NCBI GenBank assembly: GCA_025774865.1
Contig: JALGZO010000147.1
Span: forward strand, 1 to 12,302
Source: a bacterium
GTDB lineage: Bacteria > ARS69
Length of the DNA stretch: 12,302 nt
Reading direction: 5' to 3'
Of this stretch, positions 5,462 to 5,835 are shown in pieces. Positions within the stretch are counted from its first letter, which is position 1; the number at the start of each line of letters is the position of its first letter. The notes under the pieces were generated by a model that saw only the letters and a list, made by a program, of their open reading frames with translations, was not told the DNA's origin and ran no database searches. A program made the position numbers and the translations under genes.

Positions 5462-5489
5462 TTGACGGATCTCCCGGACGAGCTATAAT
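5462..5489 (+). promoter_or_regulatory. arsR-arsM promoter, near consensus
   Basis: TTGACG (5462-5467, 5 of 6) and a perfect TATAAT (5484-5489) are separated by 16 bp, making this the best sigma-70 promoter in the window. The expected transcript start is at about 5496-5497, which coincides with the arsR ATG at 5497. The mRNA therefore seems to be leaderless or nearly so, and no ribosome site precedes the ATG. Confidence 0.8.
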
Positions 5490-5498
5490 TAGAATTAT
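5485..5498 (+). promoter_or_regulatory. Palindrome over -10 box and start codon, candidate ArsR operator
   Basis: ATAATT-AG-AATTAT is a perfect 6+2+6 inverted repeat covering most of the -10 box and the first two bases of the arsR start codon. A second, looser pair, TTAGA (5489-5493) and TCTAA (5508-5512), overlaps it. ArsR/SmtB repressors bind AT-rich dyads at their own promoters, and binding here would block RNA polymerase. The very AT-rich patch stands out against GC-rich surroundings. Part of the symmetry comes from the -10 box itself, so the exact operator limits are uncertain. Confidence 0.55.
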
Positions 5499-5823
5499 GT
5501 CGAACTCTCTAACTCTAGATCCTGAGCGGTTCGCGGCGTACTTCCGTGCCCTTTCGAACCCCCACCGGCTTCGCCTCTTCCTCCGGCTCGCGGCGTGCCT
5601 GCCCGAGGAGGCGACCTGCGCCGAGCGGGACATGCGGCGGTGCGTCGGGGTCATCGGCCGAGACCTCGGCGTGACCCCTCCGACCGTCTCCCACCACCTC
5701 AAGGAGCTTCGCCAGGCGGGGCTCGTGCACATGGAACGGCGAGGACAGAACATCGAGTGCTGGGTGGAGCCGATCACGTTACGCGAGCTTGCCGAATTCT
5801 TCGAAGTTCCCAAGTGCTGCTGA
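5497..5823 (+). CDS. arsR: ArsR/SmtB-family arsenic-responsive repressor
   Basis: This 108-residue winged-helix regulator matches the ArsR family in size and pattern. It has ALSNPHRLRLFLRL (18-31), recognition helix TPPTVSHHLKELRQAGLV (60-77) and wing MERRGQNIECWVEP (79-92). I chose ATG 5497 because transcription should begin there and the conserved domain starts soon after; in-frame codons further upstream would lie before the promoter. Family members bind DNA as dimers and release it when As(III) binds cysteines. The classical CxC in the ELCVCDL motif is absent. Cysteines lie at 34, 41, 49, 88, 107 and 108, so the metal site is probably built from a different set, such as 41/49 or the terminal pair. 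It is followed after 12 bp by arsM, which supports an arsenic role over other metals. Confidence 0.88.
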   Translation: MSNSLTLDPERFAAYFRALSNPHRLRLFLRLAACLPEEATCAERDMRRCVGVIGRDLGVTPPTVSHHLKELRQAGLVHMERRGQNIECWVEPITLRELAEFFEVPKCC

Positions 5824-5835
5824 AAGGAGATTCCA

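Follow-up and report, generated by a model that had tools for sequence, protein, structure and literature searches.

Leaderless, autorepressed operons headed by a repressor gene are already known. The closest precedent is the acuR-acuI-dddL operon of Rhodobacter sphaeroides and relatives, for which passages of PMC3017554 describe a promoter-proximal autorepressor gene, a leaderless transcript that starts from the AUG (5' RACE), downstream genes with Shine-Dalgarno (SD) sites, an operator that overlaps the promoter and occurrence in several lineages. According to measurements given there, the leaderless acuR repressor is translated less than the next gene. AcuR belongs to the TetR family, its inducer is acrylate, and its operator, TAATAGAC-n6-GTCTATTA, lies over the promoter. 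The same passages cite lambda cI and Tn1721 tetR as leaderless mRNAs of autoregulated repressors; these belong to other repressor families, and no start codon within an operator conserved across phyla is reported for them in those passages. Passages of PMC7994332 describe ArsR1 and ArsR2 of Pseudomonas putida, whose binding sites over the -10 box are partial palindromes containing TTCG motifs and whose repression is relieved by arsenite; the P. putida arsR genes, however, have marked ribosome-binding sites, and so a 5' leader, and their start codon lies outside the operator. In mercury methylators, an ArsR-like gene lies upstream of hgcAB and is cotranscribed with this metal-methylation gene; the passages of PMC7438021 and PMC10349881 that describe it mention no leaderless structure.

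The arsR-arsM operon analysed here lies in a window of 12,302 nucleotides (the whole stretch of DNA studied), which is contig C150 of an incomplete genome of 4.7 Mb in 785 contigs (Table 1). With the acuR type it shares a promoter-proximal repressor gene without an SD site, followed by a gene that has one. Unlike acuR, this repressor gene encodes an ArsR-family protein, and the start codon sits at the centre of its predicted operator, part of which is coding sequence. In other words, the operon works like the acuR type without being a member of it, as its repressor is of the ArsR family and not a TetR-family AcuR. What is new is the ArsR case, its breadth and the embedding of the start codon in the operator; we recognised no leaderless arsR of this kind in the literature searched, which comprised titles, abstracts and some passages, with few subscription papers.

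Both genes were identified by family profiles. ArsR scores 61.4 against NF033788 (cut-off 55) and 39.2 against PF01022 (cut-off 22), as an ArsR/SmtB winged-helix protein; ArsM scores 329.9 against NF008823 (cut-off 263) and carries the cysteine motifs GLGCGNP, SNCVINLSP and TGCIAGA. The arsM GTG lies 12 nt past the arsR stop codon. Among relatives, the genes downstream of arsR include arsM, acr3 and arsA. At one locus (L061) the same leaderless element precedes arsR and hgcA, which encodes the mercury methylation corrinoid protein (NF040863, 316 bits), an order that invites comparison with the hgcAB regulator. By motif (NVWCAAGKGTFGT), the next gene at L076, L083 and L084 is hgcA as well. In a 10-row alignment of ArsR, C88 is invariant and C34 and C49 are nearly so, the Halobacillus member lacking C49 and having C34 shifted. 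Given that the cysteines are not uniform across the clade, arsenite is taken as the likely inducer from the neighbouring genes. Two further ArsM-related observations were made. In the window's own genome, an ArsM-like methyltransferase gene (L034, G000:C770:4213-4779) has a single in-frame TGA that aligns with the Cys of TGCIAGA in the window ArsM, a possible selenocysteine; and at L107, from position 2501, ArsR and ArsM share a single 415-aa open frame, which could be a natural fusion or reflect loss of the stop codon.

Table 1. Features of the arsR-arsM region, in window coordinates.
Feature	Position	Strand	Basis or remark
-35 box, TTGACG	5462..5467	+	Same position relative to ATG in most relatives
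-10 box, TATAAT	5484..5489	+	End-to-ATG distance 7 nt (5490-5496); spacer to -35 box 16 nt
Perfect AT dyad, ATAATT-AG-AATTAT	5485..5498	.	Real, not conserved, probably incidental
Predicted ArsR operator, TTAGA-ATTATG-TCGAA (consensus TTCGA-N3-ATG-TCGAA)	5489..5504	.	Conserved in relatives
arsR ATG and predicted transcription start (A of ATG, +/- ~1 base)	5497..5499	+	Predicted
arsR, ArsR/SmtB-family repressor, 108 aa	5497..5823	+	Family profiles
Possible third half-site, degenerate, TCTAA	5508..5512	+	TCGAA in many relatives (+12..+16)
Shine-Dalgarno site of arsM, AAAGGAG	5823..5829	+	
arsM, arsenite methyltransferase, GTG start, 266 aa	5836..6636	+	Family profile, Cys motifs

The arsR promoter has 11 of 12 consensus matches, and two such sites occur in the window against 0.5 +/- 0.6 in shuffles. 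The original prediction had placed it 7 nt before the arsR ATG and had contrasted an arsR without a ribosome site with an arsM that has a strong one. Both points hold: we looked for an SD-like run upstream of the window arsR and found none. The gene thus carries the two sequence marks used here for leaderless genes: an ATG roughly 7 nt beyond the -10 box, and no SD site. In the 4.7-Mb genome just two exact TATAAT boxes have an ATG 4-9 nt downstream (one in the backward control), and a pattern search for promoters at leaderless spacing gave 10 in this genome and none in the backward control. Nine of the 10 precede open frames of at least 67 aa, and four of these nine encode regulators as judged by eye: this ArsR, another ArsR-type, a MerR-type and a PadR-type protein. 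The organism may use leaderless starts for regulators generally. At L122-L130, in this same genome, promoters other than that of arsR stand at leaderless spacing before open frames, several of which encode small regulators.

To see how widely the arrangement recurs, genome contigs were scanned with the window ArsR protein using six search peptides, one of which (residues 8-15) lies near the N-terminus and none of which covers codons 1-7. The scan yielded 80 loci, of which two partial ones were removed; with the window itself and a G002 copy added, the set again comprised 80 loci, 79 of them with at least 150 nt upstream. Without any DNA-based selection, the best promoter within 110 nt sits 6-8 nt before the start codon at 53 of the 79 loci (shuffles: mean 4.0, maximum 6), and a promoter with at least 9 of 12 matches occupies this position at 52 (shuffles: 0.6, maximum 3). 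The dyad TTCGA-N6-TCGAA, with TTCGA at -8..-4 and TCGAA at +4..+8 (each at least 4/5), surrounds the start codon at 50 of the 80 loci. These 50, window included, span 12 named phyla: Gemmatimonadota, Pseudomonadota, Bacillota, Thermodesulfobacteriota, Myxococcota, Elusimicrobiota, Chloroflexota, Armatimonadota, Riflebacteria, Planctomycetota, Electryoneota and Acidobacteriota. Phyla are as given in the sequence records, many of which are metagenome-assembled genomes (MAGs); Halobacillus, Salibacterium and Cocleimonas are isolates. Dyad conservation among the 50 is partly circular because the loci were picked by the dyad, a circularity from which the promoter-distance test and the Ser2 test (below) are free. 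The original prediction had called the arrangement unusually compact for a metal-responsive switch; it is not peculiar to this genome but typical of this ArsR clade.

A single origin of the arrangement could not be retained as a conclusion: on a largely unresolved ArsR tree (100 columns) it needs 9 changes against 24.4 in shuffles, so it is clustered, with gain and loss indistinguishable. A search of plasmid records gave just distant, actinobacterial ArsRs (below 60% identity).

The recurrence bears directly on where the arsR transcript begins. Leaders without an SD site occur in many bacteria, so arsR could be transcribed from farther upstream, with the boxes at 5462-5489 minor or incidental. 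We consider this unlikely, because hardly any conservation remains upstream of the -35 box and the distance from promoter to ATG is constant across phyla. Three loci (L109, L110 and L116) have another operator register, yet their -10 box keeps its 7-nt distance from the ATG. An SD-like 4-mer is missing before arsR at 46 of the 50 loci and is present for 31 of 35 following genes (a liberal count, taking the best of three candidate starts). An upstream arsR start, at GTG 5431 or TTG 5386, was rejected, as it would place the promoter within the gene; also against it, 18 of the 50 relatives have an in-frame stop upstream of the ATG, and no start codon follows that stop before the ATG. The idea that the 5' end of the mRNA is structured was discarded as well, since folds from 5497 and 5490 did not improve on shuffles (z 0.03 and -0.88, respectively). 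No Rfam family was found in the window or in 19 relatives. The prediction of a leaderless arsR whose start codon lies at or next to +1 is thus well supported by comparison with relatives.

The identity of the operator required revision. The original prediction assigned this role to a perfect dyad, ATAATT-AG-AATTAT, said to cover the -10 box and the start codon. The dyad exists, is the sole perfect match in the window (shuffle mean 0.07 for up to 3 mismatches) and overlaps the -10 box, but of the ATG it covers just the A and the T. When the block is compared across related genomes, the promoter spacing and the start-codon dyad recur and the AT dyad does not. The ATG falls within the spacer of the conserved dyad, which is symmetrical about the -1/+1 junction; in the window, this dyad runs from the last base of the -10 box across +1 and the start codon into codons 2-3. 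An operator specific to the window genome and formed by the AT dyad has in its favour that this dyad is perfect and correctly placed and that the window departs by 1 base from the conserved left half-site (TTAGA), which is also a point against the switch proposed below. We nevertheless regard such an operator as improbable, since the AT dyad is missing in the nearest relatives (L041 and L005) and in others, and the window retains an intact right half-site (TCGAA, 5500-5504). From its conservation, TTAGA-ATT-ATG-TCGAA is the likelier operator. A scan of 386 diverse genomes for TANNNT-TCGA-NNN-ATG-TCGAA gave 8 sites, against 0 in the control. Full arsR genes begin at four of them, a fifth is the site before arsM in G002, and the remaining 3 look like chance.

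The right half-site of the predicted operator corresponds to codons 2-3 of arsR. With half of the operator coding, the N-terminus is fixed as Met-Ser-Asn/Lys (MSN or MSK). The Ser2 codon is TCG in 50 of 61 genes, compared with 22% of the other serines in the same genes (p = 4e-23), and codon 3 is one of AAC, AAT, AAA and AAG in 49 of 50: the residue switches between Asn and Lys, but the first two bases remain AA. In G002, which belongs to the same family as the window genome, the promoter, the dyad and ATGTCGAATAATC stand directly before arsM without an arsR gene; at this site (L144, G002:C87:57369) a 28-codon open frame is found where arsR would be, and an arsR with its own copy of the element lies on a different contig. 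As G002 keeps the element without arsR, the bases of codons 2-3 look kept as DNA. Although MSN or MSK is a common N-terminus among these ArsRs, it is very improbable that codons 2-3 are conserved for the protein instead of the operator, given one of six Ser codons even in AT-rich hosts, the alternation of Asn and Lys over an unchanged AA, and the retention of these bases before arsM in G002. The 28-codon remnant in G002 also contains a GC-rich, hairpin-like stretch.

Taken as a leaderless, self-repressed arsenic switch, arsR-arsM would operate as follows, and we hold this reading of the sequence to be probable. RNA polymerase at 5462-5489 would initiate on the A of the arsR start codon or about 1 base away from it: with promoter, predicted binding site and start codon fused in about 40 bases, the arsR mRNA should begin at the start codon. 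The arsR-arsM mRNA would then begin with AUG, and arsR would be translated without a leader, probably at lower efficiency, while arsM would be translated well from its own SD site. An ArsR dimer on TTAGA-N6-TCGAA would cover the end of the -10 box, +1 and the start codon and so block initiation, and As(III) would release ArsR and relieve transcription. Relatives in 12 phyla lend good support to the predicted compression of repression and of the starts of transcription and translation into about 40 bp. The arrangement may persist because the start codon belongs to the operator, such that an added leader would break repression.

Some relatives carry a further copy of the operator. At 24 loci, a second dyad TTCGA-N6-TCGAA (at least 9/10) occurs past the arsR stop codon, about 18-58 nt after it in L043, L046, L050, L054, L068, L097, L109, L156 and others. 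A run of at least five T, often T7, ends 8-12 nt (mostly 10 nt) upstream of this dyad at 20 of the 24 loci (shuffles: mean 0.36, maximum 3); the same test at promoter operators gave 1 of 50. Hairpins before the T-run were no better than in shuffles (mean z -0.39), with L112, which has an ordinary-looking terminator, as the exception. In G247 the unit of T-run and operator appears after arsR and again before arsM. In a DNA-only whole-genome scan the pattern was not enriched over the backward control; copies in G070, G247, G289 and G389 lie directly behind ArsR-like genes, and only the arsR-linked copies are convincing. The window, with its 12-nt gap between arsR and arsM, has no second operator. 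In the relatives that carry it, ArsR bound to the second operator could hold RNA polymerase over the U-tract, and transcription could end before the detoxification genes in an arsenic-gated manner. Termination at LacI roadblocks with the help of Mfd has been described (passages of PMC10310618), and the literature searched, seen in part, yielded no hairpin-less, ligand-gated terminator of roadblock and U-tract design. We suggest, tentatively and as something less likely than not, that this ArsR clade puts one 16-bp operator to two compact uses, embedding the start codon of a leaderless arsR and forming an arsenic-gated roadblock behind arsR.

Leaderless repressor genes have mostly been single cases, such as lambda cI, tetR and acuR, whereas this one can be traced across 12 named phyla. 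Its operator also gives reason for caution, as conserved N-terminal residues can reflect an operator rather than the protein. The loci supply a defined collection of genes that are probably leaderless, in hosts thought to be poor in such genes, cultured Bacillota included, and this collection could serve to test how leaderless starts are used. Finally, the predicted operator points to where ArsR sites may be located in arsM and hgcA operons, and thus bears on both arsenic and mercury methylation.
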